Origin: a virus
Length of the DNA stretch: 44,784 nucleotides
Virus record (IMG/VR): IMGVR_UViG_3300031951_000329
Location: 1 to 44,784 of that record
Reading direction: 5' to 3' (one strand)
Below are positions 5,394 through 35,696 of the stretch, piece after piece. The notes under the pieces were generated by a model that was not told where the DNA came from, did no database searches, and was given only the letters and a program-made list of their open reading frames with translations. The first letter of the stretch is position 1, and every line of letters starts with the position of its first letter. A program made the translations under genes and the position numbers.

Positions 5394-5969
5394 ATGAGTC
5401 TTAAAACATATCAGTGGATCAAAGGTGAAAAAGCCGGTGATGTTGTAAAATCTGATGGTGCAATTATTAATGATGAAGGAGTTGATTTTATTATTTTTAC
5501 TGATGGCAGTAGATGTAATAGCAATCTTTTAGGTGATTATATAATAGAAGTTCTTAATGATAATCCAGAGAATCTTTTTATGCTTAATGACCTTTCGCCA
5601 GAACCTTTGCGCAAGATAACGTCTAACGAAATACCACAAGCGCCGCCAACACCCGCTAAGCCAACACAAACTATAGCACCGGTTGTTAGTCCATTAGAAG
5701 CATTACTTACTACGTCTAAGAAAACTGAAAAGACAGTTAAAGTGTCATTAAAAATTAATGTTCCACCTTTTGATTTAATTAAAGTTTTGGCAGCATCTTT
5801 TGATGATGGACAAGATCAAGTTCTTAGCTATTTACAAAATAGTATAACACCAGAAATGGTTGAAAACTTGAAAAGACAAATTGCAATAGAACTAACTTCT
5901 GATATCTTTGAAATTCCAGAGAACATTGAAGAACCACAAGAAAATTTAGAAAATTATGAAAGAGTTTAA
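5394..5969 (+). CDS. Hypothetical protein, 191 aa, with Pro-rich linker
   Basis: The frame extends upstream to an ATG at 5220, but that part overlaps the gene at 5042. The ATG at 5394 follows a promoter-like box and the A-rich leader ACAAATAAT, so I use it. The protein (MSLKTYQWIKGEKAGD...) has an N-terminal beta-rich domain, a linker near residues 80-97 (PQAPPTPAKPTQT), and a helical C-terminal part with acidic end (PENIEEPQENLENYE). No family is recognised. Its last 14 nt overlap the Nudix gene, so the two are probably translated together. Confidence 0.7.
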   Translation: MSLKTYQWIKGEKAGDVVKSDGAIINDEGVDFIIFTDGSRCNSNLLGDYIIEVLNDNPENLFMLNDLSPEPLRKITSNEIPQAPPTPAKPTQTIAPVVSPLEALLTTSKKTEKTVKVSLKINVPPFDLIKVLAASFDDGQDQVLSYLQNSITPEMVENLKRQIAIELTSDIFEIPENIEEPQENLENYERV

Positions 5970-6498
5970 AACATTAAAGAGCTTCAAAAACTTTGATGTA
6001 ATCCAGATAGAAGGTCATCAAAAGATTAAGATGAAAACGATGTCGGTTGCCGTTATGCCTTTTACGACTGATGACACTGGTATGATTAGCAAAATTGGAC
6101 TTCTTAAAGAATATAACACTTTAAGAGAAGGTGATTTTTGTCATACACTTATTACAGGAACTATAGATAACGAAGATGAAGATTTACTATCAACAGCAAA
6201 ACGTGAACTAACTGAAGAAGGTGGGTTCATTACACCGCCTGAGGAGAATCAAAGATGGATTTATTTGGGTAACTTTTTTCCATATAAAGACAGTGACAGA
6301 CAAGTACCTACATTTGCTGTAGATGTCACTGGATTATCACAGTCAAAACCAGAAGGTGATGGTTCAAAAAAGGAAGAACTTTCAGAATTAATTATGATGC
6401 CGTCTAATGAAATTTTAGTTTCAGAAGAGACTCTTGCATTAGCTGCATTCCTCAGACTATTTAATTACTTTTACTTAAAATCAACAGGGCATGTATAA
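5956..6498 (+). CDS. Nudix hydrolase-like protein
   Basis: This 180-aa protein contains a Nudix box at residues 68-91 (G68, E75, then RELTEEGGF with R83, E84, E87, E88, G90). The spacing between the first Gly and the first Glu is one residue longer than the usual G-x5-E-x7-REUxEExGU, but all the metal-binding Glu residues are present. Nudix enzymes hydrolyse nucleoside diphosphates linked to another group; in phages they include ADP-ribose, dinucleoside polyphosphate and RNA-cap hydrolases. The substrate cannot be told here. The N-terminus (MKEFKTLKSF) is only superficially like the CTS motif and has no cleavage site. It overlaps the neighbours by 14 nt and 8 nt. Confidence 0.85.
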   Translation: MKEFKTLKSFKNFDVIQIEGHQKIKMKTMSVAVMPFTTDDTGMISKIGLLKEYNTLREGDFCHTLITGTIDNEDEDLLSTAKRELTEEGGFITPPEENQRWIYLGNFFPYKDSDRQVPTFAVDVTGLSQSKPEGDGSKKEELSELIMMPSNEILVSEETLALAAFLRLFNYFYLKSTGHV

Positions 6499-7249: not shown

Positions 7250-7280
7250 ACTCCTATTACCTTAGATTTTGCTTGTATGA

Positions 7281-7326: not shown

Positions 7327-9459
7327 ATGGCAGAGAATAAAGAAGTTTATGGGTATGATATCATAAATTATGGTAATAAGACAGCTGGATATGGAATCTT
7401 GGTGTTTAAACCAGGTGATAATGCACCCAAAGAACAACGAACTTTCATTTACTCTAAGAATTTCCCTGGGAGATACAAAGGTAACTGGAATTACGTAGAA
7501 GCAGCGGTTAAAGACTTAAAAAGTCAATACCCAGGCGTTGAAAAAATGCAGCCGCGCCCTACGCCGCAGCCTACGCCGCCGCAGCCTAATACAACTGTTG
7601 CTGATGTTAAACCAATTCAAACACTTGAACCTACTGACTTACGTCTTGTTTTTGCAACGAGTGCTGACGGACAAGTTGTTTATTCTATGTCAGGAGAACC
7701 AAAGAATACACATTTACTTGTTGATGGAATGCAATTTTCCGAAGGAACTGATGAAGCATCTGCTAAGACAGGAAAAAGGAAAATGGAAAATGAGTTTACC
7801 GCAGAAGAATTACAAAATAAAGCAATTGAATTTGCCGGTGTACCTGCATTAATTAACTCTAACTCATATATTAACTTACAAGCAGCTGGCGGAAAAATTA
7901 ACAATAAGTACTTAATAGACCGAGAAAATAGTATACGTTTTTATAACATATCTGAACCTGGTGTTGGTGATGGTAGCGGTGTTCAGGCGTCTTCCGCACC
8001 AACTGTAAATCAAATAGTTGCATGGAGTAGATCAAATGACTCAAATGCTGCTAAGTTCCCTTATAAGTTTACCGACTTTGCATTTTTAAAATGGTGGAAG
8101 AAAATTCCTAATAACTATCTTATTACATTAAGACGTTATCCGTTTCCTGTTAATGATGCAGTTATAAGTGGAGAAGAAGCTAGAAAAGATCTTAAACTTG
8201 ATAAACTAAAACCGGTAGCAACTATGCTTACGTTTTTAGGTGAAGACACGGGTAACAAAATATCTTCTATTTTAGGTCCTATTGAAACTGGTCTTAAGTG
8301 GAAAGATTTTGAAGCTAAAGTATGGGAAGTAAGTACCTCAGGTGATGCGGCAAGTGTAAATAACCCAGCGCCTGGATTAGCAAAAATGCTTGGGTTTTTA
8401 GCAACTGGTGATGCACGTGGAACAAGCGCAACTGTAACACCGCCGGATCCTTATAATAATGGTCCATACGCAAACAAGATCATTGGTCCTGTAAACGTAA
8501 TTAATACAACTAAAGGTCGTGATCAAGGACTAACATTTGCGCACAAGATGGAACTTGTATTTGAATATAGTTTAAGAGGTATTGGTGGAATTAATACAAA
8601 GGCAGCGGGATTAGATATTATTGCAAATGCAATGTTAATGACATCGGCAACTGCACCATTTTGGGGCGGTCAAAACAGATACTTACCAAATGCTGGTTCT
8701 GGGCAAGGTGACCCATTTCTTGGCGGGTCTGAAGGCCGAAGTGCTTGGTTACGCGGTGATCCTGCAGGATTTTTGTCTGCATTAAAAAATCAATTTATGA
8801 GTATTGGGGATAACTTGAGTGACTTGTTTAACAAATTCTTTACGGGAGACGGTATGTCTCTTGAAAGTATTGCAGGTGGTGCCAAAGATGCTGCCAAGCT
8901 ATTTATGAAAAACAGTGTTACGGAATCAACCAGAGTTACTACAGGTATTCACTCGTTATTAACCGGAGCTCCTGTTGGCGAATGGCATGTATGTGTTGGA
9001 CCACCAATGAATCCAATGATGATGATGGGTAATATGATTGTAACTAATGCTAAAATTGAATTTAGTGATGAACTTGGTCCTGATGATTTCCCAGCAGAAA
9101 TAAAAGTAACAATTACAATTGAACATGGAATGCCTCGTGATAAAGCAGGCATTGAATCTATGTTTAACAAAGGACGAGGTAGAATTTATGCCTTACCTAA
9201 AGGATATGAAGAAACTCTTGCATCAAGTTCACAATCTCCAGTAGATACATCAATCGAAGCAAGATACAAATATTCTCGTAATGATCCTTCTTCAAATAAA
9301 GAAGCAGATGGCAAAACCGCTGACCAAAAACAAACGGAAAAAACTGATGCAGGGTCAACAAATAAAGCTCCTACCGTAGGGTCTGTATACGCTGCTCTAT
9401 ATTCGCAAGGTTCGGGTTATTCACCAGCAGTTCCTAAACCAGCAGAGAAAAAAGAATAA
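7327..9459 (+). CDS. Large baseplate/tail protein with tube-like C-terminal domain
   Basis: This 710-aa protein has a small N-terminal domain (residues 1-72, MAENKEVYGYDIINYG), a Pro-rich linker at about 74-88 (PRPTPQPTPPQPN), a long central region, and a conserved-looking domain at about 548-630. The latter includes GEWHVCVGPPMNPMMMMGNM, then FSDELGPDDFP and ITIEHGMPRDKAGIESMF. A strand-rich block of this kind, opening with G-x-WHV-x-VG-x-P and followed by 'IEF..ELGPDDFP', resembles tail-tube and tube-initiator folds of contractile phages (T4 gp19/gp48/gp54 type). The C-terminal 80 residues are low-complexity and charged. It is the first gene of the hub/spike block, which supports a baseplate role. 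The exact T4 counterpart is uncertain. Confidence 0.75.
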   Translation: MAENKEVYGYDIINYGNKTAGYGILVFKPGDNAPKEQRTFIYSKNFPGRYKGNWNYVEAAVKDLKSQYPGVEKMQPRPTPQPTPPQPNTTVADVKPIQTLEPTDLRLVFATSADGQVVYSMSGEPKNTHLLVDGMQFSEGTDEASAKTGKRKMENEFTAEELQNKAIEFAGVPALINSNSYINLQAAGGKINNKYLIDRENSIRFYNISEPGVGDGSGVQASSAPTVNQIVAWSRSNDSNAAKFPYKFTDFAFLKWWKKIPNNYLITLRRYPFPVNDAVISGEEARKDLKLDKLKPVATMLTFLGEDTGNKISSILGPIETGLKWKDFEAKVWEVSTSGDAASVNNPAPGLAKMLGFLATGDARGTSATVTPPDPYNNGPYANKIIGPVNVINTTKGRDQGLTFAHKMELVFEYSLRGIGGINTKAAGLDIIANAMLMTSATAPFWGGQNRYLPNAGSGQGDPFLGGSEGRSAWLRGDPAGFLSALKNQFMSIGDNLSDLFNKFFTGDGMSLESIAGGAKDAAKLFMKNSVTESTRVTTGIHSLLTGAPVGEWHVCVGPPMNPMMMMGNMIVTNAKIEFSDELGPDDFPAEIKVTITIEHGMPRDKAGIESMFNKGRGRIYALPKGYEETLASSSQSPVDTSIEARYKYSRNDPSSNKEADGKTADQKQTEKTDAGSTNKAPTVGSVYAALYSQGSGYSPAVPKPAEKKE

Positions 9460-11659: not shown

Positions 11660-13600
11660 ATGCAATACGCAGATAGTGTAACCAAATCTTTTTTAACGTA
11701 CGGTAATCCTTCAACGGTTACATTACCGCCTGGTTCTATGTCAGATTGGCAAGATCCTACTTACATGGGATTTCAGATAAGATTAGTGACTAGCCTAAAT
11801 AATGAAGTTGACTTAGATGATATGCCGCACGGACTTTTCTGTGGAACTTATAGTCAAAAAGATAAAGAAAACGCTAGTCAATATACACACAGTAACAAAT
11901 ACTCTACATATAACTACTTAATTAATCGTGGTGAATATAAGAGAGCTGAATACATAAGATTATTTGAAACTGGGTTTGGTACATTACTTAATGAATGTCC
12001 TTGGTATTTTGTAAAAGTATCAGGACTTGCAGATGCTTGGAAAATTGATTCTAAGAATAACTGGAGAGGTAAAGATAAAAAAATTACGGTAGAAACACTA
12101 GAATCTATTGATATGAAAATGACATATCTAATAGACTGTTATCGTAAAGCAGTATTTGATGCAAATTGGATGAGATGGGCTGTGCCAGATCATATGCGTT
12201 GGTTTAAAATGGATATCATTATTAGTGAAGTTCGTCCTATGAAAATTGGTAAAGTTGCTGAAGAGACAACCAATAATCCTGGGCCTGACACATCTACAGA
12301 GCCATCAACAAAATTAGGAAAACTTGCAAAGAAAGTAGGTACTTCGGTACAGCAAAAAGCAACATCAGCATTAGCTGATGTCGCGGCAAGTGCTGGTTTA
12401 ACTTTAGGCCCGGGTACACCTCGTGAATATGGATTGGTTACAGATAAAACACCAGAGCCTTGGTCAGCTGCTACTTTTATAAAGTTTTCATTTGAACACT
12501 GTGAAATTGATTTAACTGAAGCTCCGCCATATTTAGATACGGTAGGGATCATAGGTGACACCGTTGCCTCTAATAAGTTTGTAATTAAAACGGGAGTTAT
12601 TCGCGAGAGTAATACATACGGTCTTCTTGGAGCAATTCTTGACGATACATTAACATGGGACGCGTATGGTAAAGATGCAGCAAAAGAAGCTAAAGTTATA
12701 AATTTCCAAACTGCTAAAGATACTGCCGCAATACCAAGTTCTTACGAAGTTAATCCAACAAGAGCTGATACACAAAAAGCATTTGATTCCGCAAACGGGA
12801 AACCTAATTCAGGTGGTCTTTTAAGTCAGATAGGCCAGAAGGCACTTTCTGGAATAACAGCGGCTGCAACGGATCTTATTAAGAATGCTGTGAATGGTTT
12901 CTTATTAGGAAATGTATATAATGCGTCTCCACTTGGATTATTTAATGCTGCACAAGGTATTCTGAATAATCCAACCGGGGCAGTAGAAGGTTTATTAAGA
13001 AGACAAAGTAGTCCAGGTATTGCTGCTATGATGGCAAAGAAAGTAGAACTTACAGGTGCGGAAATAAACTTGGTTAAAACTCTTATTGGGCAGACTACAT
13101 TAGAAAGCGCAGCACCGGAATTAAATAGCCCGGGTAATGTTGGATTAGTGGGAGCTGTTAACCCACCAGAAACTTTAGGCAAAGAAAGTTTAACTTCTCC
13201 AGATACTCAAACAACTCCGCCGGGGAAAGTTGTATTATCAGCTGTGCCTTCAGATAATACAACTTTAGGTAGTACTACATTTGAGTTACCAAATATAAAT
13301 ACTGGAGGCGCGAGTAAAGTTGATTTATCAGGTCCTGAAATACCAGCGGCTAGTCCACAGAAAACAAACTTGGAGGCATTTGCGTCTGCAGGCATACCTT
13401 CTTCTAGAGCTAATCTTACGGCTCCTAATAAAAAGGTAGCAACACAGCAGAATGTTAGTCTTGAAGGTGCCACTGTTACTACAAGTGATCTTGGAGAGGC
13501 TGATTTAACAGGCGCACCTGCGGAAACTGCTACATTAGGAAAAGCTGATTTAACCGCAGCACTTGTACCACCAACCACATTAGGAAAAGCTGATTTATAA
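11660..13600 (+). CDS. Tail tube-initiator-like protein with exact 15-residue C-terminal repeats
   Basis: In this 646-aa protein, residues 1-200 and 265-300 have tube-protein features (DPTYMGFQIRLVTSLNNE, then WFKMDIIISEVRPMKIG and FIKFSFEHCEIDLTEAPPY). These suggest a gp48/gp54- or gp19-like domain with an inserted Ala/Gly/Lys-rich loop. From about residue 470 to the last residue a 15-residue repeat runs in strict register, best copies TTLGKADLTAALVPP. The gene lies between the gp27-like hub and the gp5-like spike. The start at 11660 (leader AATGACCC) was preferred because the ATG seven bases upstream leads to a stop after a few codons. Its TAA overlaps the spike ATG by one base. Confidence 0.75.
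   Translation: MQYADSVTKSFLTYGNPSTVTLPPGSMSDWQDPTYMGFQIRLVTSLNNEVDLDDMPHGLFCGTYSQKDKENASQYTHSNKYSTYNYLINRGEYKRAEYIRLFETGFGTLLNECPWYFVKVSGLADAWKIDSKNNWRGKDKKITVETLESIDMKMTYLIDCYRKAVFDANWMRWAVPDHMRWFKMDIIISEVRPMKIGKVAEETTNNPGPDTSTEPSTKLGKLAKKVGTSVQQKATSALADVAASAGLTLGPGTPREYGLVTDKTPEPWSAATFIKFSFEHCEIDLTEAPPYLDTVGIIGDTVASNKFVIKTGVIRESNTYGLLGAILDDTLTWDAYGKDAAKEAKVINFQTAKDTAAIPSSYEVNPTRADTQKAFDSANGKPNSGGLLSQIGQKALSGITAAATDLIKNAVNGFLLGNVYNASPLGLFNAAQGILNNPTGAVEGLLRRQSSPGIAAMMAKKVELTGAEINLVKTLIGQTTLESAAPELNSPGNVGLVGAVNPPETLGKESLTSPDTQTTPPGKVVLSAVPSDNTTLGSTTFELPNINTGGASKVDLSGPEIPAASPQKTNLEAFASAGIPSSRANLTAPNKKVATQQNVSLEGATVTTSDLGEADLTGAPAETATLGKADLTAALVPPTTLGKADL
13100..13597 (+). repeat. Array of twelve 15-residue (45-nt) protein repeats
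   Basis: A hydrophobic residue preceded by a two-residue A-D/V-D/A-N-like step recurs at residues 481, 496, 511, 526, 541 (Phe), 556, 571, 586, 601, 616, 631 and 646. The spacing is exactly 15 residues with no insertion or deletion. The last three units (GEADLTGA, GKADLTAA, GKADL) are nearly identical. The protein ends on the key Leu of the last unit. Confidence 0.9.
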
Positions 13601-14379
13601 TGATAAAAGGATTAAGTAAAGAAGAGATAATTGGGAAGATATTCTACGGCGAAGTTGTAGATAATAATGACCCGCTTCAAGAAGGGCGTTGCCGAGTTAA
13701 AGTTTTTGGTATCTTTGATGATATTCCAGACGCAGATATTCCATGGGCATCTCCGGGTTCTTCCAATTCATTTGGAGGAGGAGAAGATGGAGGCTTTGGC
13801 AATATATCAATACCAAAGAATAAAGCAATAGTAAGACTTAGTTTTGCTGATGGTGAACTCTATAATCCAGAGTGGTTTAGCATTGCGTACATCAACCAAG
13901 AAGTTAAGAATGAAATTGCTGATTCTTATTTAAACTCACATGTTCTTATGTATGATGTTGATGAACAGATGAGAGTTTTTTATACACCGTCTAAAGGGTT
14001 TGAAATTTACTTTAAGAAATCACATATCACAATTAATCCTGATGTAAGTATTACAATAGAACACGCAGACTCACAAAGTATTATTGAACTTATAGGCCCC
14101 GATTGTAATATTACTACACAAGCAAACGTTAATGTAACCGCTGCTACAAAAATTGAAGAAACTGCTGAAACTTGTATCATAAACGGAACTCAATTAACAC
14201 AATTAGGTCCAACGGGCAATTTTAGTGCAGTGGGAGCAGAACCGTTATGGGCATTCTTAAAATCCCTATCTGCAGCAGTAGATCTTAAATGGCCTCCTTC
14301 ACCAGGAGCAAATGCCTCTGCGGCAGCTGCAGCGGAAACAGCATCAACATCAACCATTGTGACTGTCACAGTACCTTAA
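13600..14379 (+). CDS. gp5: gp5/gpV-like baseplate central spike protein (OB-fold, no lysozyme domain)
   Basis: This 259-aa protein opens with the classic spike OB-fold (residues about 11-105): GKIFYGEVVDNNDPLQEGRC, RVKVFGIFDDIPDADIPWAS, then PKNKAIVRLSFADGELYNPEWF. The middle (about 135-200) is a run of short alternating strands (HITINPDVSITIEHADS, NITTQANVNVTAATKIEET), as in the triple-stranded beta-helix of gpV/gp5. The C-terminus is Ala/Ser/Thr-rich. T4 gp5 is 575 aa and carries a lysozyme domain between OB-fold and helix; no such domain is present here, so this is the shorter gpV-like architecture. It would form the trimeric puncturing needle under the gp27-like hub. No PAAR-type tip gene is evident next to it. 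Confidence 0.9.
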   Translation: MIKGLSKEEIIGKIFYGEVVDNNDPLQEGRCRVKVFGIFDDIPDADIPWASPGSSNSFGGGEDGGFGNISIPKNKAIVRLSFADGELYNPEWFSIAYINQEVKNEIADSYLNSHVLMYDVDEQMRVFYTPSKGFEIYFKKSHITINPDVSITIEHADSQSIIELIGPDCNITTQANVNVTAATKIEETAETCIINGTQLTQLGPTGNFSAVGAEPLWAFLKSLSAAVDLKWPPSPGANASAAAAAETASTSTIVTVTVP

Positions 14380-14388
14380 TCATGAAAC

Positions 14389-17079
14389 ATGGCAGATCTA
14401 TCACCAGCAGCTCAAGCAATAGTTGAAGCACTAAAATCTAAAGCAAAAGTTATAGACGGAGTTCCCTACATGCCCACTGGGTTTGAAGGTAAATCTGCGT
14501 CTGAACTTTTAGACGCAGTGAATGCTTCATATACTAAAATTGGAAAAGCAACTGTAGGTTCAAATAAAAATGCAGCTGGTTTAGGTGGAGGCGCAACTCG
14601 TAGCAATGCGGTTATACCAACAGATATTACGGCAGCACCATCGTCAACAACAAATATTCTTCCAAATTATTCTAAAGAAGAAATTGAAGAAGTTGCTAAG
14701 GAAGCTGTTCAAGAATGTGAAATTCGCAAAGCAGTTCCTAACATTTTAAATAACGTTCAGTTATCTGAAGCTATTGATGCAAAGTGTGATATTAAACCAC
14801 CTGTGCCATTCTTACCTGCTGAATTTTTACCTGACACTCCAGTTGAGTTAAAGCCAGAACCTGAGCCAGAAGATTCTTTAGCACCTCCTAAATATACGCT
14901 TGTCACATTGGTTAATCTTGATGGATTAACTGCAAACGGAAATGAATATGCTGAAATAAAAGTTCTTAAGAATGATGGTGATAAAGTTTCTTGTGGAGAA
15001 ACTATCATGGAAGTTGGTGGAATAGCTGTTACTTGTCCTATAGTTGATGGGACAGTTAAAAAAATAATCACCAAAGAAAAAGCTGTTAAGTTTAGCCAGC
15101 TATTTGTAGTAGAAGAACCTAATCCAGTAGATACATCGAAAAAAGTTTTTGCTGAAGCTGATAATCTTAAAAAGAAGATTGATGAAATGATTCTTCTTAA
15201 AGAAAGATTAGGAGTACTTGAGCCACAAGTATGGCACTCAAAAATTATCTGGGGAATCTTTGAAGGCCAGTACCAAGGATACATTGCATATTATCAAAAA
15301 TTTAATGATCTTATAACTCAAAGAAATACTCTTAATGATGAGTTTATTGAAAATAGAAAGAAATTAGAAGATCTTTTTTATACGTATACTTATACTACTA
15401 CATCACAATCAAAAGCGGATCTTGTTGCAGCTATAACTACAAGAACTGAAAAGTTTATCTTACCTAATGATTATAACAGTAATAAGAAAAAACAAATTAC
15501 TGAATTACTTGCAAGACAGGCTGAACTTGTTACATTAATAGGTAATGTTACATCACAACTTGATGCTGTAAGAGCTGAACAGCCTACTTATTTTGCATTA
15601 GATAAGACTAAAGAAATTAATGCAAGTGTTACTTCTGTCCCGTTTACAAAAGGTGTTAAAGGATCACAATACACAATCATACCATTTAAGTCAGGTGATA
15701 AAATATCTTCTCCGTATATTGACATATTAAAAGGATTACCTGCTATTATAGAGCCTTTTACTAATAACATATTATTGGCAGGTAGATACTTTAATAGGTG
15801 GAGTGATATTCCTAATCCTTTACAACCAAATGTTCATTTTGATATTAATCAAAAAGGAATCTTTTCTTATAACACATTAATTAGAGTAGAAACTTCACCA
15901 ACTGATTATGATTTTGAAGTTAAAGGAGGTATTCGTAGATGGTCAGGAAGTATGTGGAAAACCCGATACGATTTCTTTAACACAGCAACAGCAGTTTCTA
16001 AAGGTATTAAACCGTCAGATGATCCTGATGAAGTAACGCAAAAGACAGGTGATTTAAGTTTACAAGAAAGAGCGTTACCTGCGGTAATAGAAAAACTTGC
16101 TACCGATAATTATAATGCGGTTGTAGAATACTGTAAGAACTTTGGTTACTATTTATTAAATGATGGTTCAATATTCATACAAAACGGCAAGAATAAAACT
16201 ACTGAACTTGATAAGAAACGCAAAGATGCACAAGCGGCATTTGATAAACTTCATGATGAATATGCGGCTATTCGTAAAAAAATAGTAGAAACAGAGATAT
16301 ACATAGACTCATTTCCAAATATCATTAAAAACATAACTACAAGTGGTTGTGGAATGGTAGGCGGTGGTCCTGCATCAGTTGGTAAGTATGAAGGTAAGAA
16401 AGCTAAAATCATTCCTTGGCCGTTTAGTGATGGTGGGGGTGGTGCTGGTGCTGGTGTCCCAGGTGATAATGATAAAGAAAACGGAAACCCAGACCCTAAT
16501 TCTCCGCCATCAACATCTCTTGCATATTGGAAAAAATATTGTAAGCGAGCAACTACGGTTAACTTGCTTCCTACATACTGGCCTATCGGTATTATTATAC
16601 CTACACCAAGTGGATTAATTAAGATACCTTTTCCTATTATCTGGACACCGCTTGCAGTTATTCCGTCGGATCTTGCACTAATTGTGATAGGAATAACAAT
16701 GTGCGGTATTTGCCCAGGACCTTTTATCTATATAGTAAACCCGGGTTGGCCGTTTCCTATAGGAATGGTTAAAGCAAAAGAATCTTGGTTTGTGGTAGGA
16801 AATCGTGGACCAAAAAATATTGATTCTATTACTACATCTGAAGTTTCTGCGCTTGACATACCTACAGTTAACATACCGTTAAAATACACAAAGAATGGAC
16901 AGACTGTTAAGACTAATGTCAAAATTAACGTGGGACCTATTGTAACTCAACTTTTACCTTTTATACAAGATGATTTACCTGTGTATGAAAGATTAACCAT
17001 GACAAATGTTGTCTACTTATTATATCTTGCAAAATGGTGCAAGCAAGGAAAAAACACATACGGATTCTTTACAAGTTAG
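14389..17079 (+). CDS. Large spike/baseplate-associated protein with lipoyl-type domain and hydrophobic C-terminal region
   Basis: This 896-aa protein follows the spike gene by 9 nt. Residues about 187-243 read as a biotinyl/lipoyl-type barrel: NDGDKVSCGETIMEVGG, then VTCPIVDGTVKKIITKEKAV and LFVVEE. The lysine that would be modified in EAMKM is absent (EVGGIAVT), so the domain should be purely structural. Pro/Glu-rich linkers flank it. Residues about 250-420 and 605-650 are coiled-coil-like. A Gly-rich stretch (SDGGGGAGAGVPGD) leads to a hydrophobic Pro/Ile-rich region at about 723-793 (PIGIIIPTPSGLIKIPFPII, then LALIVIGITMCGICPGPFIY), which could interact with a membrane. The family is not recognised. 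A role in the spike or envelope penetration is inferred from position and hydrophobicity. Confidence 0.75.
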   Translation: MADLSPAAQAIVEALKSKAKVIDGVPYMPTGFEGKSASELLDAVNASYTKIGKATVGSNKNAAGLGGGATRSNAVIPTDITAAPSSTTNILPNYSKEEIEEVAKEAVQECEIRKAVPNILNNVQLSEAIDAKCDIKPPVPFLPAEFLPDTPVELKPEPEPEDSLAPPKYTLVTLVNLDGLTANGNEYAEIKVLKNDGDKVSCGETIMEVGGIAVTCPIVDGTVKKIITKEKAVKFSQLFVVEEPNPVDTSKKVFAEADNLKKKIDEMILLKERLGVLEPQVWHSKIIWGIFEGQYQGYIAYYQKFNDLITQRNTLNDEFIENRKKLEDLFYTYTYTTTSQSKADLVAAITTRTEKFILPNDYNSNKKKQITELLARQAELVTLIGNVTSQLDAVRAEQPTYFALDKTKEINASVTSVPFTKGVKGSQYTIIPFKSGDKISSPYIDILKGLPAIIEPFTNNILLAGRYFNRWSDIPNPLQPNVHFDINQKGIFSYNTLIRVETSPTDYDFEVKGGIRRWSGSMWKTRYDFFNTATAVSKGIKPSDDPDEVTQKTGDLSLQERALPAVIEKLATDNYNAVVEYCKNFGYYLLNDGSIFIQNGKNKTTELDKKRKDAQAAFDKLHDEYAAIRKKIVETEIYIDSFPNIIKNITTSGCGMVGGGPASVGKYEGKKAKIIPWPFSDGGGGAGAGVPGDNDKENGNPDPNSPPSTSLAYWKKYCKRATTVNLLPTYWPIGIIIPTPSGLIKIPFPIIWTPLAVIPSDLALIVIGITMCGICPGPFIYIVNPGWPFPIGMVKAKESWFVVGNRGPKNIDSITTSEVSALDIPTVNIPLKYTKNGQTVKTNVKINVGPIVTQLLPFIQDDLPVYERLTMTNVVYLLYLAKWCKQGKNTYGFFTS

Positions 17080-17112
17080 AGTCCTTAAAAATATATGATC
17101 AAACATCGCGGA

Positions 17113-17121
17113 TATATACAA
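17113..17121 (+). promoter_or_regulatory. Putative late promoter box TATATACAA
   Basis: TATATACAA lies 20 nt before the ATG at 17133 in a 53-nt gap and matches the boxes at 5374 and 7281. It supports placing the start of the S1-domain gene at 17133. Confidence 0.45.
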
Positions 17122-17132
17122 AAAGCAAAAAT

Positions 17133-18338
17133 ATGGAACTAAAAAAACAAGACGAAATTTTCGATGACAACTATTGGGCACTCCTTGCAACAAATGGCAA
17201 GTTAGTACCAAATGCGAAATTAAGTAGTAAAGCAGGCAATGCTGTTTATTGCCACGAATCATACGCTGAAGATTTATTGGCGGTGTATCAAGGAATGACT
17301 GAAACGGCAAATAAAGAGCCGAAAGTAGGTGAAGTTTATAAACTTGTAGATGTAAGAGTCGGTGTTAACCGTGAACTATACGTTACACTTACAGGTTTTA
17401 TTGATGCAACAGTTAATCTGGAGCAAGAGAAGAAATTCCTAGCAATGTTAGGAATGACTGAAGAAGAATTGGTAGAGAGTTTAAAAACCGAAGACGGTAA
17501 AAAACATTTCTGTGCTAATCAGTATCATGTAAGAGTTGAGATGATTAAACCTTATGTTAAGGTATCTCTTTATGAAGGGCAGCTTTCTCATATCAAAGAA
17601 GATTTCTTTGGGCAGATTGGAAAACCTACAACAGCTTACTATGGAACTATTACAGGTAAGAACCAAGGTGGATTTATTATTGCGGTTCAAGGTATTAATG
17701 GTTTCCTTCCTGGATCTCTTGCGGCAGCTAATGTGGTACGAGACTTTGATAGTATGATTGGTAAAACAGTTCCAGTGATGGTTGAAGATTATCTTACAGA
17801 GAGTAGTACATTCGTATTCTCTTATAAGAAATATCTTGCTTATGTTCTTCCAACAAAAATTGAAGAACTTGACCTTGATGCAAAATACACAGGGACAGTT
17901 ACAGGTATTGCAAAATATGGTATCTTTGTTGAGTTTGATGAAATCTTTACAGGATTACTTCATAGCAGTAAAATGTCTGCGGCTCTTAAAGAATCGTTTA
18001 AGAACTTTGAGTTTAAACCTGGAGATACGGTTGACTTCTGGATTAGAGAGATTACGCCAGATAAGAAAATCATTTTATCTGATGAAGATCCTTCATTCCG
18101 TAGAAAAGAACTTGAAGAATTTAAAGATCAAAACGTTGGAATTATTCGCAGCGGGGAAGTGGTGTCAATTCAACCATTTGGTGCACTAATTAAAATCCAA
18201 AAAGATATGGTTGGTCTTATTTCCCAAAAGGAAATTAAAATGAAAAAGAAACGATTCAATGTAGGTGATGAAGTTATGGTCACTATTGAAAGAGTTGCTA
18301 ACGATAAAATTTTCTTAACATTACCAAGCGAATCGTAA
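17133..18338 (+). CDS. Multi-S1-domain RNA-binding protein (ribosomal protein S1-like)
   Basis: This 401-aa protein carries three recognisable S1 OB-fold domains. Residues 167-232 read YYGTITGKNQGGFIIAVQGI with GFLPGS; residues 250-317 read YTGTVTGIAKYGIFVEFDE with GLLHSSKM; residues 338-398 read GEVVSIQPFGALIKIQKDM with GLISQKEI. Residues 65-150 may be a degenerate fourth. Bacterial S1 brings mRNA to the 30S subunit through A/U-rich leaders. A phage-borne version could favour its own A-rich, Shine-Dalgarno-less mRNAs, or act elsewhere in RNA metabolism. The start at 17133 was chosen over one at 17034 because the latter lies inside the previous gene, whereas 17133 follows a promoter-like box. 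Confidence 0.9.
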   Translation: MELKKQDEIFDDNYWALLATNGKLVPNAKLSSKAGNAVYCHESYAEDLLAVYQGMTETANKEPKVGEVYKLVDVRVGVNRELYVTLTGFIDATVNLEQEKKFLAMLGMTEEELVESLKTEDGKKHFCANQYHVRVEMIKPYVKVSLYEGQLSHIKEDFFGQIGKPTTAYYGTITGKNQGGFIIAVQGINGFLPGSLAAANVVRDFDSMIGKTVPVMVEDYLTESSTFVFSYKKYLAYVLPTKIEELDLDAKYTGTVTGIAKYGIFVEFDEIFTGLLHSSKMSAALKESFKNFEFKPGDTVDFWIREITPDKKIILSDEDPSFRRKELEEFKDQNVGIIRSGEVVSIQPFGALIKIQKDMVGLISQKEIKMKKKRFNVGDEVMVTIERVANDKIFLTLPSES

Positions 18339-18339
18339 G

Positions 18340-18480
18340 ATGGCTGAATGTCCAAGATGTAAAACTAGTTTAGGTTGCTCATGTCAACTTAAGAATGCAT
18401 CAGACGGAACTGAAGTATGTGAAGAATGTATAGAAAATTACGAATTAAAATTAAAGGCAAAGAAACGCAATGAAAGTTAA
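18340..18480 (+). CDS. 46-aa zinc-binding miniprotein
   Basis: The product begins MAECPRCKTSLGCSCQLKNA and continues to a basic helix ending KAKKRNES. Six cysteines are arranged C4-x2-C7-x5-C13-x-C15-x11-C27-x2-C30, the layout of a zinc ribbon or knuckle pair. The ATG directly follows the S1 gene stop (TAAG-ATG), and the end overlaps the next gene by 11 nt, which argues that it is translated in this operon. Its partner and role are unknown; a small nucleic-acid- or protein-binding accessory is possible. Confidence 0.8.
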   Translation: MAECPRCKTSLGCSCQLKNASDGTEVCEECIENYELKLKAKKRNES

Positions 18481-19876
18481 AAAGTCTTATACCGAAGCTG
18501 AAATCCTTGACGCCGGAAAGATTGGATATGAATTTGAGTTTTATTCAAATTTATCCATTGAAAAGACCGCTCGTGGATTAGCCAAGTATATCCAAAAGAG
18601 GGTGGTTATTCCTATGGCACTTAGTAACATACAAAAGCCTAAACCTCTTTATCATTCGCCAATCACGCCTACTGCTGATATCTTTAAACTAGAGCCTGAT
18701 TATTCAGGAGGTAAAAATATGATGGAACTTGTTACGGGCCCTATGTCTTATAAAGATGCCCGTAATGTTCTAATCAAAGTTTTTGAGTGGATTAAAGATA
18801 ACGGATACACAAATGAAAGATGCTCTATACATGCTAACATTAGTATAGATCCTAATAAGTTACCTACGCTAGTAAATATTCCTCAAATGAATGTTGCCAA
18901 ATTCATACTTGATTTTGATGAAGGTAGAATTTACGATGTATTCCCACAAAGAAAAGATTCCGTTTATGCAAGAAGTATAAAAAATCTTAGACCTAATAAG
19001 GTTATGTTTTATTCTCCTTCTTTAGAAGAGTTTAGTCGTTCAACTATGGCAATACCTGATGAAAAGTATTTTGGGGTGAACTTTACAAAGTTGGAAAAAG
19101 GATACTTAGAATACAGATATATGGGAGGTAAAGATTATCATACTAAGGCTCGTAAGATTCTTAGTCTTGTTGATTATTACATCTTACATATGTTTAGTGT
19201 TTTAAACTTTAATGGTCAATATTCACAAGTTGACCGAGCTAAGTTTAAGAGCATGATGGAAAAACAAGAAATCATATACAAATCATTTATTAAATACGGA
19301 GAGTTTAAAAAGAACTATCCTGACATTGAGCTTTCAATGGATATGATTAAAGATGATCAAACTCTATCTGCTGTTTGGGGTAATCTACGAGAAAAACTAT
19401 TTGATCTTGTAGTTACTGGAGGAATGACTAAAGGTAAATTTAATTATGATACTGATTTAGGTCGCTTCCAACTTCAAGACACTAAACTAAATAACTGTAA
19501 AGTTGAAGACATTGAGTTTATTAATTGTGAGATCCAAGGTGTTATAGACCGTTCATGGTTTTATAACTGTACTGTAAAGAACTCTAGAATTACAAATTCG
19601 TGGGCTATGAAAGAGAATGTTTTTGAGTTCTCTAAAATTGCTGATACTCCACTTCACGTTACTAATGTATGTAATGACTGTTTCATCGAGAATAAACGTT
19701 TCGTTATTAACTGTGAAGTCAATAAAGGAGTTATTCGTAATGGTGAAATTGGTAAACTTGCAAAAGTTTCAAAAGAAACTATGATTGTTGAACTGATTGA
19801 GCCATCTGAATCTGACGGCGGATTTAAAAGTGAAGAAACAGGAAAGAAAGAAGAAATAAAAAAAGCAAAGAAATAA
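18470..19876 (+). CDS. Amidoligase-like enzyme fused to a pentapeptide-like beta-helix
   Basis: In this 468-aa protein, residues 15-240 carry the signature order of the GCS/GS-like amidoligase family. There is an N-terminal G-Y-E-F-E-F strand (E21, E23), D77 before MMELVTGPM (E86), CSIHANIS (H121), and GYLEYRYMGGKDY (E214, R216). Such enzymes join a carboxylate to an amine using ATP and modify peptides or make small amide products. Residues about 328-395 switch to short repeats (LQDTKLNNCKVEDIEFINCE, then WFYNCTVKNSRITNSW) like a pentapeptide-repeat helix, and the C-terminus is charged (KKEEIKKAKK). Two CTS internal-protein genes follow after 2 nt and 24 nt. The substrate is unknown. The family call is by eye, and an ordinary structural role cannot be excluded. 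Confidence 0.75.
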   Translation: MKVKKSYTEAEILDAGKIGYEFEFYSNLSIEKTARGLAKYIQKRVVIPMALSNIQKPKPLYHSPITPTADIFKLEPDYSGGKNMMELVTGPMSYKDARNVLIKVFEWIKDNGYTNERCSIHANISIDPNKLPTLVNIPQMNVAKFILDFDEGRIYDVFPQRKDSVYARSIKNLRPNKVMFYSPSLEEFSRSTMAIPDEKYFGVNFTKLEKGYLEYRYMGGKDYHTKARKILSLVDYYILHMFSVLNFNGQYSQVDRAKFKSMMEKQEIIYKSFIKYGEFKKNYPDIELSMDMIKDDQTLSAVWGNLREKLFDLVVTGGMTKGKFNYDTDLGRFQLQDTKLNNCKVEDIEFINCEIQGVIDRSWFYNCTVKNSRITNSWAMKENVFEFSKIADTPLHVTNVCNDCFIENKRFVINCEVNKGVIRNGEIGKLAKVSKETMIVELIEPSESDGGFKSEETGKKEEIKKAKK

Positions 19877-20448: not shown

Positions 20449-21180
20449 ATGACAAGAGGAGAACTTATAGAAATGGTAACCGGTGAAATCACAGCAAGTG
20501 GTTCACTTCCTTATTCTATTCCTGAGCGTGAAGCAAATCGTATCATTGACCAAGCACTTAATTGGTTTTATGTTAATTATGGTCCTGCTGTAGAAACTCA
20601 ATATTATGTGATAGGAAAAGATTGGTTTAAACAGCCTGAATTTAAAAAGACAAGAAGTGTTTTATTACCTGACTGTGTTGTTACAGTTTTTGAGGTAAAA
20701 GAAATAACAGGTGGTGGGCGTCTTGGTACTGTTGACCGTGATTTTGCTGATAACCGACTTATTGCTTCAGAATTATTTTTATCACCATTTCAATCTGATG
20801 ACCTTGTTCTTAGAACTGCACAATATTCTTATTGGGATTTAACAAAAGCATTTATTCTTGAAAGAATTGGGTTTGACTATAATCGTAATACTCATCGTTT
20901 AAAAATTGTAGGGCGTGATCCTAAAAGAAATGTTTTCTTGCAAACATATGCAAAGATTGAAGAAAGTAAACTATATGATGATTGGTTCTTCCAAAGATAC
21001 ATAATTGCACAAGCAAAAATATCTTTAGGTAGAATACTTGGAACATTTAAGTTTAATCTTCCAGGTGGTATTGAAGTTGATGCAAGTGGAATTAAAGATG
21101 AAGGTAATGAAGAGCTTAAAGAAATTAAACAAAGAATAGATGATGAAAACAGTCCAGACTGGTTCTTCTTATTCCACTAA
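20449..21180 (+). CDS. Neck/connector protein, T4 gp13-like
   Basis: This 243-aa protein has an N-terminal helix pair (ANRIIDQALNWFYVNYGPAV), a beta-rich centre, and a C-terminal part reading DDWFFQRYIIAQAKISLGRI, then GTFKFNLPGGIEVDASGI and NSPDWFFLFH. The pattern of an 'RALELY'-like N-terminal helix, a helix ending in 'K..LG..L..F....LPGG..ld' and an acidic C-terminal helix is that of T4-type neck/head-completion proteins (gp13 group). In T4 such a protein joins the filled head to the tail. The placement here, just upstream of gp25, differs from T4. The assignment is by pattern only. Confidence 0.6.
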   Translation: MTRGELIEMVTGEITASGSLPYSIPEREANRIIDQALNWFYVNYGPAVETQYYVIGKDWFKQPEFKKTRSVLLPDCVVTVFEVKEITGGGRLGTVDRDFADNRLIASELFLSPFQSDDLVLRTAQYSYWDLTKAFILERIGFDYNRNTHRLKIVGRDPKRNVFLQTYAKIEESKLYDDWFFQRYIIAQAKISLGRILGTFKFNLPGGIEVDASGIKDEGNEELKEIKQRIDDENSPDWFFLFH

Positions 21181-21194
21181 TATTAAGATGTCTA

Positions 21195-21557
21195 ATGTTA
21201 AGAGAGATATACTGTAGAAATGTTAATGATCCAAGTTATAAACCTTTTCAATTAGAAACTGGTAGCGAGTTAGAAGCTCTTCTAACTAAAATTCGTATGA
21301 TCATTTTTACACAAAAAGGTGAAGTTCTTGGTTCTCCTAATTTAGGATTAAGTCTTGAAGAATATTTATTTGATTTTAATGTCAATACTGCACAATTACA
21401 AAATACATTTTATGGTCAACTTGCTGCTTTTGTTCCTGAGGCTGGAAAATACAATGTAGAAATCGATGTAAAGTTTCAACCTGGCGAAGTGAGGGATTTA
21501 TGTTTCATTGATATATACATAGATGGATCCAAATTCATTGGTGTCCTCGCAAAATAA
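21195..21557 (+). CDS. gp25: gp25-like baseplate wedge protein
   Basis: The 120-aa length is close to T4 gp25 (132 aa). It has the gpW/gp25 family pattern: a helix with ALLTKIRMIIFTQKGEVLGS, PNLGLSLEEYLFDFN (the 'G.~.dp.fG..l..~lfe' motif), and a final strand region (IDVKFQPGEVRDLCFIDIYI). In contractile tails gp25 caps the sheath-baseplate contact and works with gp6 and gp53. The gp6-like gene follows after 10 nt. An upstream ATG at 21188 is out of frame and leads to an early stop, so the ATG at 21195 is the start. Confidence 0.85.
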   Translation: MLREIYCRNVNDPSYKPFQLETGSELEALLTKIRMIIFTQKGEVLGSPNLGLSLEEYLFDFNVNTAQLQNTFYGQLAAFVPEAGKYNVEIDVKFQPGEVRDLCFIDIYIDGSKFIGVLAK

Positions 21558-21567
21558 GCAGAGATAA

Positions 21568-23259
21568 ATGGAAATATTTAAAGTCAATAGGATATCCTTT
21601 AGTCAGATGTATTCTGATGTTAGGGAGTATCTTACAAGTACATTTCAACAATCGGCTGAAGTATTCAGCCCAGCAAGTGCGTACGGTCAAATACTGTCCG
21701 TAGTTCTTGACATGGGTAAGCTTATTTTATACTATATTGAGGACAGTATTACTGAACTTAATATTTATACCGCCACACGCGACATTTCTATTAAAAGTTT
21801 AGCCAGAATTGCTGGTCACAACCCTACTCGTGCTATCTCAGCAAACGGTACTCTTATTTTATCTTATAGCGGAGAACAAATTGATATGTATGGTAATACT
21901 GTAATCATACCAAATTACACAAGAATGGTTAATGATGCTACGGGATTACCTTATCTTATAGTTTTAAACACAGAAGAAACTCGTCTTGAACTTGTTGCTA
22001 AAAAATCTATTGAAGTTAAACTATTCCAAGGTGAAGTTGAGTCTCAACAAGTAACTGGAACTGGGTTACCTCTTCAATCATATTCTGTTAATCCTAAAAG
22101 AGGTTATCAAGTTGACAATGGATTTGTTAACGTTTATGTGAATAATGAAAAATGGAAAGTTTATGATTCTATTTATGATATTCCGTATGAAGCAAAAGGT
22201 GTAGTTGTTAAGACAGGTATTAACGGTGGTCTTGATACTTACTTTGGTAATTCATACTTTGGAAGTATTCCTGCATTAGGTTCTACTATTAGAATTGAGT
22301 ATTTAACCAATGCTGGTAATGCTGGTAACATTTTTGACAATAGCCAACCAAAGTTTTCATTTGCTGATGATGGATTTGATTTAGCAGGTGATACGGTAGA
22401 TCTTAATACTGCCTTAAATGTAAGAGTTGGCCTACCTATTAACTTTGGTGCTGACAGCGAACCTGTTTATTTAACTCGTATACTTGCTCCTAAAACGAGT
22501 CGTGCGTATGTCTTAGCAAATGCGGATAATTATGTTTACTTCTTAGAGAAGTTTAATATGTTTAGTGTAATTGATGCATTTAGTTCTTTCAATGATAACG
22601 ATCTTACTGATGATAATGTAGTTTACCTATTCCTTATACCTGATGTAAATAAACGTAAACCGTCAAATGCAGATTATTTTAACATACCTCTTAATTTATT
22701 CTTATTATCAACAGAAGAGAAGAATAAGATATATGATCTTATAGAACAAAGCGGTCAAAAAATTCTAACAACAGTTGTTAAGATTGTTGATCCTATTGTT
22801 AAAAAATATGTAGTAAACATTAGTGTTCGTTCTTTTGAAGGATACAGCAAAGACGTTATTCGTCAATCTATAGTCTCAAAATGTTCGGATTATTTTTTAA
22901 AGAATCGTCGTAGAGACAAGATTCCAAAATCTGATTTGGTTTCTATTATTGAAAGTGTAGCTGGTGTTGACTCAGTTAACGTTTGGTTTGTATGTGAAGA
23001 AAATGAAGTTTTCAAATCTGATCCTGCAAATGCTGAGGCTGCACCTAAAGGTCTTGATGAATATGGAGATGTACTTATTGGCCGTGGTGAATATGCTCTT
23101 ATTCGTGGAGGTTGGAATGATCGTACAGGTTTTACATATTATGATTCAACAGATGCTTCTAAACCTGGAAGTATAAACGTGGTATTTGGTAAAGATTCAG
23201 AAAACACATTAAACATGGAACTTCACCGAATTAACATTGATGCAATAAAAAATACGTAA
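21568..23259 (+). CDS. gp6: gp6-like (baseplate J-like) wedge protein
   Basis: The 563-aa length is somewhat shorter than T4 gp6 (660 aa). It opens with a helical region (QILSVVLDMGKLILYYIEDS, then LNIYTATRDISIKSLARIAG) typical of the baseplate J/gp6 family. A beta domain with repeated strands follows (GYQVDNGFVNVYVNNEKW, IRIEYLTNAGNAGNIF), then a C-terminal helix-rich part containing KKYVVNISVRSFEG and IIESVAGVDSVNVWF. gp6 forms the inner wedge ring that drives baseplate opening. It sits directly after gp25, as in many contractile systems. Confidence 0.85.
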   Translation: MEIFKVNRISFSQMYSDVREYLTSTFQQSAEVFSPASAYGQILSVVLDMGKLILYYIEDSITELNIYTATRDISIKSLARIAGHNPTRAISANGTLILSYSGEQIDMYGNTVIIPNYTRMVNDATGLPYLIVLNTEETRLELVAKKSIEVKLFQGEVESQQVTGTGLPLQSYSVNPKRGYQVDNGFVNVYVNNEKWKVYDSIYDIPYEAKGVVVKTGINGGLDTYFGNSYFGSIPALGSTIRIEYLTNAGNAGNIFDNSQPKFSFADDGFDLAGDTVDLNTALNVRVGLPINFGADSEPVYLTRILAPKTSRAYVLANADNYVYFLEKFNMFSVIDAFSSFNDNDLTDDNVVYLFLIPDVNKRKPSNADYFNIPLNLFLLSTEEKNKIYDLIEQSGQKILTTVVKIVDPIVKKYVVNISVRSFEGYSKDVIRQSIVSKCSDYFLKNRRRDKIPKSDLVSIIESVAGVDSVNVWFVCEENEVFKSDPANAEAAPKGLDEYGDVLIGRGEYALIRGGWNDRTGFTYYDSTDASKPGSINVVFGKDSENTLNMELHRINIDAIKNT

Positions 23260-32566: not shown

Positions 32567-33295
32567 ATGGCTGTAAGAAGAAAAACTAAACCGGTGGTAG
32601 AAGACCTTGTACAAGAACTAAAACCACAAGAAAGATTACTTATGAAAATAAGAGTTGATCTTAAATGTAAAAATGATCGCCAGAAAAATTTCATTAGACT
32701 AATAAATAAGCATGACATTGTAGTCTGTGCAGGTCCAGCTGGAACTGGAAAAACATTCGTTGCTTGCGCTGAAGCTCTAAAATTGCTAACTACACAAAAT
32801 CACAAGTATAAGAAAATCATAATCGTAAAATCTGTAACTGTTTTAGAAGGCGAAGAAATTGGTTTCCTAAAAGGGACAATGAAAGAAAAGATGGAGCCGT
32901 TTATGATATCTTTCTTAGATAACTTTCATAAACTTATAGGTAAAGAACTAACAGGAACAATGTTAAATTGTGAAATGATTGAAGTACTTCCACTTGCTTA
33001 TGTTAGAGGAAGAAGCATTGATAACGCAATCATTATTGTTGATGAGGCACAAAACATTACATTGAAAAACATGCGTTCAACAATGACTCGTTTAGGTGAA
33101 GATTCCAAAATCATTATTACTGGTGATACCAAACAGATTGATATGAAAGCTGGAAATACCTCATCATTAGAAAAAGTAGTTCAATACTTTACACCGATGG
33201 AAGAAGTTGGTATAATGGAATTTGGTAGAGAAGATATAGTTCGTAATCCGTTAATCATCAAGATTGAAGAAATCTTTGAGAAACATATGGGTTAA
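32567..33295 (+). CDS. phoH: PhoH-like ATPase
   Basis: This 242-aa protein has a Walker A CAGPAGTGKT (residues 54-63), a Walker B AIIIVDEAQN (152-161), the PhoH-specific VLPLAYVRGRSI just before it, and ITGDTKQID (sensor motif) after it. PhoH ATPases are widespread in large phages; some are linked to RNA helicase or RNA-processing roles, but the phage function is unsettled. The N-terminal 45 residues are basic. Its 3' end overlaps the convergent SET-domain gene by 4 nt. Confidence 0.95.
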   Translation: MAVRRKTKPVVEDLVQELKPQERLLMKIRVDLKCKNDRQKNFIRLINKHDIVVCAGPAGTGKTFVACAEALKLLTTQNHKYKKIIIVKSVTVLEGEEIGFLKGTMKEKMEPFMISFLDNFHKLIGKELTGTMLNCEMIEVLPLAYVRGRSIDNAIIIVDEAQNITLKNMRSTMTRLGEDSKIIITGDTKQIDMKAGNTSSLEKVVQYFTPMEEVGIMEFGREDIVRNPLIIKIEEIFEKHMG

Positions 33296-34853: not shown

Positions 34854-35696
34854 ATGCCAGAATTAGCGGAAGTCAAAATCATGGGTGATTTCATTAATCA
34901 CGTTGTTGATAATGAAGGATTCTTTGAAAAGATTGAGAAATCAGAGTCTACTAAAGTAAAAACAGATCTTGATATCTTTGACGGCGGAGTATTTACATTA
35001 CGAGCAAAAACTCGTGGCAAAGAAATGATACTTCATCTTGAAATGGTGGGTGGCGATATTAATGGAGCCGTCACTAAAGATATGGGAGTTACTTTAGGTA
35101 TGAGTGGCAACTGGGCATACATAAGAAAAGAAAGTGAGCATTTAGAAAAAGTGCTTAAGCATTCTCATTTAAGATTTATCACAACAAGAGGAAACTATTT
35201 AGTATTACATGATGTTAGACGTTTTGCTAAATGGAAATGGGTAAATGATTGGAACGCTGGTCGTGGTCCTTGTCCGCTGACAGAATATCCTAAGTTTATT
35301 GAAAATGTAAAACTATATTTTAGTAAACACAAAGCATTTAACTTACCTATTAATGAATTGCTGATGAACCAACGATTCTTTAATGGAATAGGAAATTACC
35401 TAAGAGCTGAAATACTCTATAGACTAAACATTAATCCTTTTACTATCGCAAATGAGATTAGTCTTAAAGATTGGGACCATCTGCTTCTTCTTTGTCATTT
35501 ATGCGTTAGAGACGCATATACTTTGGGCGGCGGGCAATTAAGTGATTGGAAAAATCCTAATGGAGTTGATGCTAAAGACTTTAAAGAATGGAAGAAATGC
35601 TATGGAGTTTTATCGTCTTTAACCGATGGTACAGGCAGAAGATTTTGGTATGATCCAAAATGGGAAGAATATGTACCTAGTAAGTACACTCAATAA
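34854..35696 (+). CDS. Fpg/Nei-family DNA glycosylase without a zinc finger
   Basis: The 280-aa protein begins MPELAEV with the catalytic Pro2 and Glu3. It contains KTRGKEMILHLE, LGMSGNW, VLHDVRRFAKW, and the H2TH segment NQRFFNGIGNYLRAEILYR. Together these identify a bifunctional base-excision glycosylase/AP lyase. The C-terminus has only one cysteine (C249) where bacterial Fpg/Nei have four. It instead reads DGTGRRFWYDPKWEEY, the form of a 'zincless finger' as in NEIL1 and mimivirus Nei, keeping an Arg (R262/R263) for DNA contact. It would remove oxidised bases from phage DNA. Confidence 0.92.
   Translation: MPELAEVKIMGDFINHVVDNEGFFEKIEKSESTKVKTDLDIFDGGVFTLRAKTRGKEMILHLEMVGGDINGAVTKDMGVTLGMSGNWAYIRKESEHLEKVLKHSHLRFITTRGNYLVLHDVRRFAKWKWVNDWNAGRGPCPLTEYPKFIENVKLYFSKHKAFNLPINELLMNQRFFNGIGNYLRAEILYRLNINPFTIANEISLKDWDHLLLLCHLCVRDAYTLGGGQLSDWKNPNGVDAKDFKEWKKCYGVLSSLTDGTGRRFWYDPKWEEYVPSKYTQ

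Follow-up and report, generated by a model that had tools for sequence, protein, structure and literature searches.

A four-domain bS1-related protein encoded among the structural genes of a Bacteroidota-type huge-phage lineage

The S1-like gene and its product

The window, which is the whole 44,784-nucleotide stretch analyzed (IMG/VR record IMGVR_UViG_3300031951_000329), carries on its plus strand an open reading frame (17133..18338) for an S1-like protein of 401 amino acids with four OB/S1 domains, as judged from Pfam, an AF2 model, Foldseek and 33 viral loci. S1 is a ribosomal RNA-binding protein that aids delivery of the message to the ribosome. A longer frame opens at 17034; the start at 17133 is preferred because it is the one kept among the relatives and is closely preceded by a conserved AT-rich motif. 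The Pfam family S1 (PF00575) matches the protein in three stretches (94.8 bits, E 4.2e-27), and the AF2 model, for which an alignment of 20 viral relatives served as input, contains four OB domains, in agreement with the claim of the earlier note that at least three S1 domains are present. The model has a pLDDT of 78.8 and a pTM of 0.49, so that its single domains are usable and their relative placement is not. In it OB1 spans residues ~66-145, OB2 168-230, OB3 250-316 and OB4 337-396.

The N-terminal extension (residues 1-64; 17133..17324) contains a tryptophan motif, known from the relatives, followed by a helix (45-53) located by the AF2 model and VIA alignment. OB1 (residues 65-163; 17325..17621), which is degenerate in identity and too diverged for detection by Pfam, was seen in the AF2 model and carries a three-helix insert (100-128). 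OB2 (residues 168-231; 17634..17825) carries a GGF...GFLPGS motif and the residues F181 and F191. OB3 (residues 245-317; 17865..18083) is matched by Pfam and has the canonical RNA-binding residues Y/F262, F265 and H277, and in OB4 (residues 333-398; 18129..18326) F349 is retained and the canonical His is missing on sequence comparison. All of these features are on the plus strand. A sequence search of the PDB ranks bS1 proteins highest (E 3e-19), the top Foldseek matches are bS1 in 30S mRNA-delivery complexes (E 2e-19), and the viral structure matches include uncultured-phage records already titled '30S ribosomal protein S1'. By sequence and Foldseek the tandem domains are related to bS1 D1-D3. 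The phage protein is thus shown to be a bS1-related S1-fold protein, kin to bS1 domains 2-3.

RNA-binding residues and ribosome anchor

The gene is under purifying selection (dN/dS 0.05-0.15). The Y/F-F-H set has a role in RNA binding by S1 domains; OB3 retains this set, with H277 and F265 invariant across 20 phages, and OB4 retains its first Phe. In OB2, F181 and F191 fall at the positions of F120 and F130 in the mRNA pocket of E. coli bS1, two residues reported to contact the mRNA on the ribosome and to hold it at the exit channel (PMC10123108). Compared with 14 distant phages, mean identity is 67-78% for OB2-OB4, 40% for OB1 and 32% for the N-terminus; among the OB domains of the phage protein, conservation is lowest in OB1, which in bS1 is the 30S anchor. 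VIA-align placed model residues 46-236 on residues 3-174 of bS1 in a 30S pre-initiation complex (Z 11.8, rmsd 7.1, 169 residues), and from this placement helix 45-53 is regarded as the counterpart of the uS2-binding bS1 helix. At the uS2-anchoring positions (E. coli F5, F9 and K43) the phage helix is aligned with hydrophobic or aromatic residues, and K43, the residue that reaches into the zinc pocket of uS2 in E. coli, is replaced by F, L or M in the window clade. In Bacteroidota bS1 the F5 and F9 positions are themselves occupied by L and Y. RNA binding by the phage S1 is well supported by its sequence, and ribosome docking is less well supported, because the RNA-binding residues are kept, OB1 and the N-terminus are the least conserved parts, and K43 is replaced in the window clade.

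The main rival to a function in translation initiation is an RNA-binding protein that has lost the bS1 ribosome anchor and works off the ribosome, coating, unfolding or protecting phage mRNA as a chaperone, anti-nuclease or transcription helper. The strong conservation of OB2-OB4 beside a poorly conserved OB1 and N-terminus and the loss of the K43 equivalent in the window clade speak for such a protein, as does the good alignment of its single domains with the S1 domains of NusA, RNase R and PNPase, but ribosome-bound bS1 can still be aligned with the OB1-OB2 arrangement and the N-terminal helix, and five other huge-phage S1 proteins (L067-L070 and L074) retain the K43 equivalent. Off-ribosome action is a serious possibility with the odds against it. 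The weak conservation of OB1 and the replacement of K43 also count against the mRNA-loading role proposed below, and so does the occurrence of S1 domains in many non-ribosomal proteins.

Genomic context

The conserved left neighbor of the S1 gene is a gp5-like baseplate hub gene (13600..14379; PHROG 430, E 7e-15), and the conserved right neighbor encodes an amidoligase-like and pentapeptide protein (18470..19876; Amidoligase_2, E 9.5e-4, which is below the curated Pfam cut-off); synteny supports both assignments. Farther right lie genes for a neck or head-tail adaptor protein (20449..21180; PHROG 211, E 2e-11) and a gp6-like baseplate wedge (21568..23259; PHROG 219, E 1e-22), all four on the plus strand. 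A viral scan with the S1 protein gave 33 loci of 52-100% identity with a constant gene order: tail genes and hub, S1, amidoligase-like, neck, gp25-like, gp6-like. The S1 gene has a position inside the late structural cluster. Every neck or baseplate relative belongs to the Lak, Mahaphage-type, Tenacibaculum, Chryseobacterium, Flavobacterium or PAU phages, which upholds the view of a Bacteroidetes-type phage, and the nearest neck and gp6-like relatives lie within one and the same record set.

To avoid selecting loci on S1, the neck protein was used as an S1-independent anchor for a second scan. S1 was present in all contigs (48/48) with a neck identity of at least 36% and the site covered, a set in which some contigs are near copies of one another and for which the neck query alignment was drawn from S1-bearing loci. 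Its identity falls to 36-47% among these contigs, and it is always beside baseplate or neck genes. Three further neck-anchored contigs end short of the S1 site, and the most distant neck matches (about 25% identity) had no S1 nearby. S1 is a core gene of a whole huge-phage lineage, old and fixed.

The same gene order is retained in LR756500 (462 kb). The S1 gene is about 90 kb away from the neck gene in Lak and more than 130 kb away in LR756501 and LR756502, so that linkage to the structural genes, though conserved, is not obligate. A role in the virion, as a component of the baseplate or tail or as a protein packaged with them and perhaps injected, would agree with the location of S1 in the window clade and LR756500, where the gene always has the gp5-like hub on one side and the neck gene on the other; these distances, the closest folds, which are nucleic-acid-binding S1 proteins, and the cultured relatives, which build contractile-tail particles without S1, make it quite improbable. 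A functional unit of S1 and the amidoligase-like protein was also considered and is not general, since the two genes are far apart in other huge phages.

Translation leaders

The leader survey covered 37 ATG-started genes of the 44.8-kb record, which is a contig fragment and not a whole phage genome. A 5-nt SD core is absent from all 37 and a 4-nt core is present in one, compared with 1.1 expected from shuffled leaders and 14.5% at internal ATGs, and positions -10 to -15 are enriched in A (Fisher p down to 1e-4). The comparison suggested by the earlier note thus confirmed, for this record, its description of genes without SD sites behind A-rich leaders. Such leaders match those of Bacteroidota.

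An S1 domain was sought in the whole records of five cultured Bacteroidota-type phages (Tenacibaculum PTm1 and pT24, Chryseobacterium MA9V-2, Flavobacterium MaF61, and phage PAU) and found in none. These phages have neck and baseplate genes related to those of the window, and their leaders are A-rich at -10 to -15 with a 5-nt SD core in 0-2%; for comparison, about 60% of T4 leaders have a 4-nt core. The leaders of six other S1-bearing phages, with starts picked mechanically and somewhat blurred, were no different from the S1-less set. The tie between S1 and SD-less leaders drawn in the earlier note is accordingly not supported, and S1 carriage as the cause of such leaders is rejected for this group, since its S1-less relatives are equally SD-less; S1 is dispensable for leaders of this type, which also counts against the mRNA-loading role. 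The leaders follow the host rather than S1: leader type is set by the host ribosome and is the same whether or not a phage carries S1. The window alone hinted that the two kinds of phage differ in A at -3, but this difference proved inconsistent with more genomes.

Al-Shayeb et al. (2020) reported S1 in huge phages, linked it to missing SD sites and proposed a role in translation (PMC7162821); in this group the published correlation is explained by the host, because the S1-less Bacteroidota phages have the same leaders. The anti-SD of the Bacteroidota ribosome is sequestered, and added bS1 raised initiation on SD-less mRNA about two-fold in F. johnsoniae (PMC9976891). bS1 was proposed as the reader of A-rich leaders (PMC6847099). 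A decoy that shuts off host translation, occupying host leaders or the site of bS1 but not promoting initiation, is very improbable: truncation to four domains (three in Lak) from the six of Bacteroidota bS1 would suit it, but the leaders of S1-bearing phages resemble those of other Bacteroidota phages, so that shut-off would hit phage mRNA too, and S1 proteins with four domains are present in bacteria as well (Firmicutes-like sequences).

Phylogeny and comparison with known systems

Phylogeny against bacterial bS1, likewise suggested earlier, was carried out as an ML tree of OB2-OB3 (46 rows, 166 columns). The S1 proteins of the window clade, Lak and Mahaphage-type phages form a single group (support 100/100) on a very long stem, with bacterial bS1 opposite; long branches on both sides of the split make the depth of placement unsure. 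One ancient acquisition of S1 by the huge-phage lineage would fit this single clade and its stem, the length of which does not support a recent capture from a Bacteroidota host. Attachment beside Bacteroidota and the N-terminal W motif hint at an ancient Bacteroidota source. Most relatives and Lak have [F/I][D/N/E]W near the N-terminus, as Bacteroidota bS1 does (FDW/FNW), and the window protein has only the W. A profile of the N-terminal extension matched Bacteroidota bS1 weakly, and a scan of viral contigs with Bacteroidota bS1 gave one fragment only.

The phage S1 shares with Bacteroidota bS1 the N-terminal helix, the OB1-OB2-OB3 order and the GGx...FLPGS motif. It differs in having four OB domains, whereas Bacteroidota and E. 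coli bS1 have six, and in its strongly diverged OB1, about 30% identity and the very long branch between them. With the Lak and Mahaphage S1 (PMC7162821) it shares 28-34% identity over the matched stretch, the clade, the OB order and the lack of SD sites, and Bacteroidota hosts are assigned to Lak and the largest huge-phage genomes. In contrast to Mahaphage and Lak, the contigs of the window clade reach up to 238 kb, OB1 has an extra helical insert, and S1 is locked beside the hub, amidoligase-like and neck genes; the Lak S1 has three OB domains and another location. Microcystis phage PhiMa05/MaAM05 likewise encodes a bS1 relative (PMC13157829), but this nests among bacterial bS1 in the OB2-OB3 tree, adjoins other ribosomal-protein genes and is an independent acquisition. 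The kind of gene and the functional proposal are already published (PMC7162821); what is added here is a clade of jumbo-phage contigs with S1 at a fixed locus, its apparent single origin, and a control in which SD-less leaders proved not to depend on S1.

Genes for bS21 were noted in the S1-bearing LR756501 (542936-543088) and LR745206 (296654-296806). None was found in four window-clade contigs, possibly incomplete, and S1 with bS21 as a translation kit was set aside.

Proposed role

Most likely the phage S1 derives from bS1 and acts late in infection, as a factor for translation initiation or RNA binding. A probability of about 0.55 is given to the more specific reading of a bS1-derived four-OB RNA-binding paralogue that loads phage late mRNA in Bacteroidota-type hosts. 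The protein would be made late in infection, and OB2-OB4 would bind phage mRNA at its single-stranded A/U-rich leaders. Docking, perhaps transient, at the mRNA-exit region of the 30S subunit may proceed through the N-terminal helix and OB1-OB2, so that phage late mRNAs would be loaded efficiently while host bS1 is limiting. SD-less initiation would not be created by the phage S1, being a property of the host ribosome. It is further conceivable, although unlikely, that this lineage-defining S1, long apart from cellular bS1, reprograms late-infection Bacteroidota ribosomes through its own mRNA-loading module and a diverged 30S anchor, giving two classes of initiating ribosomes. As a minimal, naturally selected variant with four domains, the protein offers a tool for testing the reading of A-rich leaders by bS1 in SD-less Bacteroidota.

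Promoter-like motif and other features

The conserved promoter-like motif GATATATAC (17111..17119, plus strand) lies 13 nt ahead of the S1 start codon, and inspection of 24 loci showed a motif of the GATATATA type shortly upstream of S1 in each. In nine loci GATATATAC was counted 15 times, whereas permutations of its letters gave a mean of 1.9, and it was never on the minus strand. The motif looks like a candidate phage promoter of this group. GATATATA(C/G) is also found in the window at 7279, before the gene at 7327, and at 21510, where it precedes the gp6-like gene and sits inside the gp25-like ORF; on the plus strand only, it was also noted in the loci L009, L012, L015, L017, L020 and L034.

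Searches of the 44.8-kb window for tRNA and Rfam families gave no match. The amidoligase-like protein (18470-19876), which also has an MSV199/pentapeptide part, is a second core gene product of these phages, with matches within the phage collection in huge uncultured phages only. Between it and S1 (18339-18470) is a short ORF with paired cysteines (CPRC, CSC, CEEC) resembling a zinc ribbon. In or next to the structural region are also genes for a PhoH-like ATPase (32567-33295; judged by sequence), a formamidopyrimidine-DNA glycosylase (34854-35696) and a NUDIX hydrolase (5956-6498).
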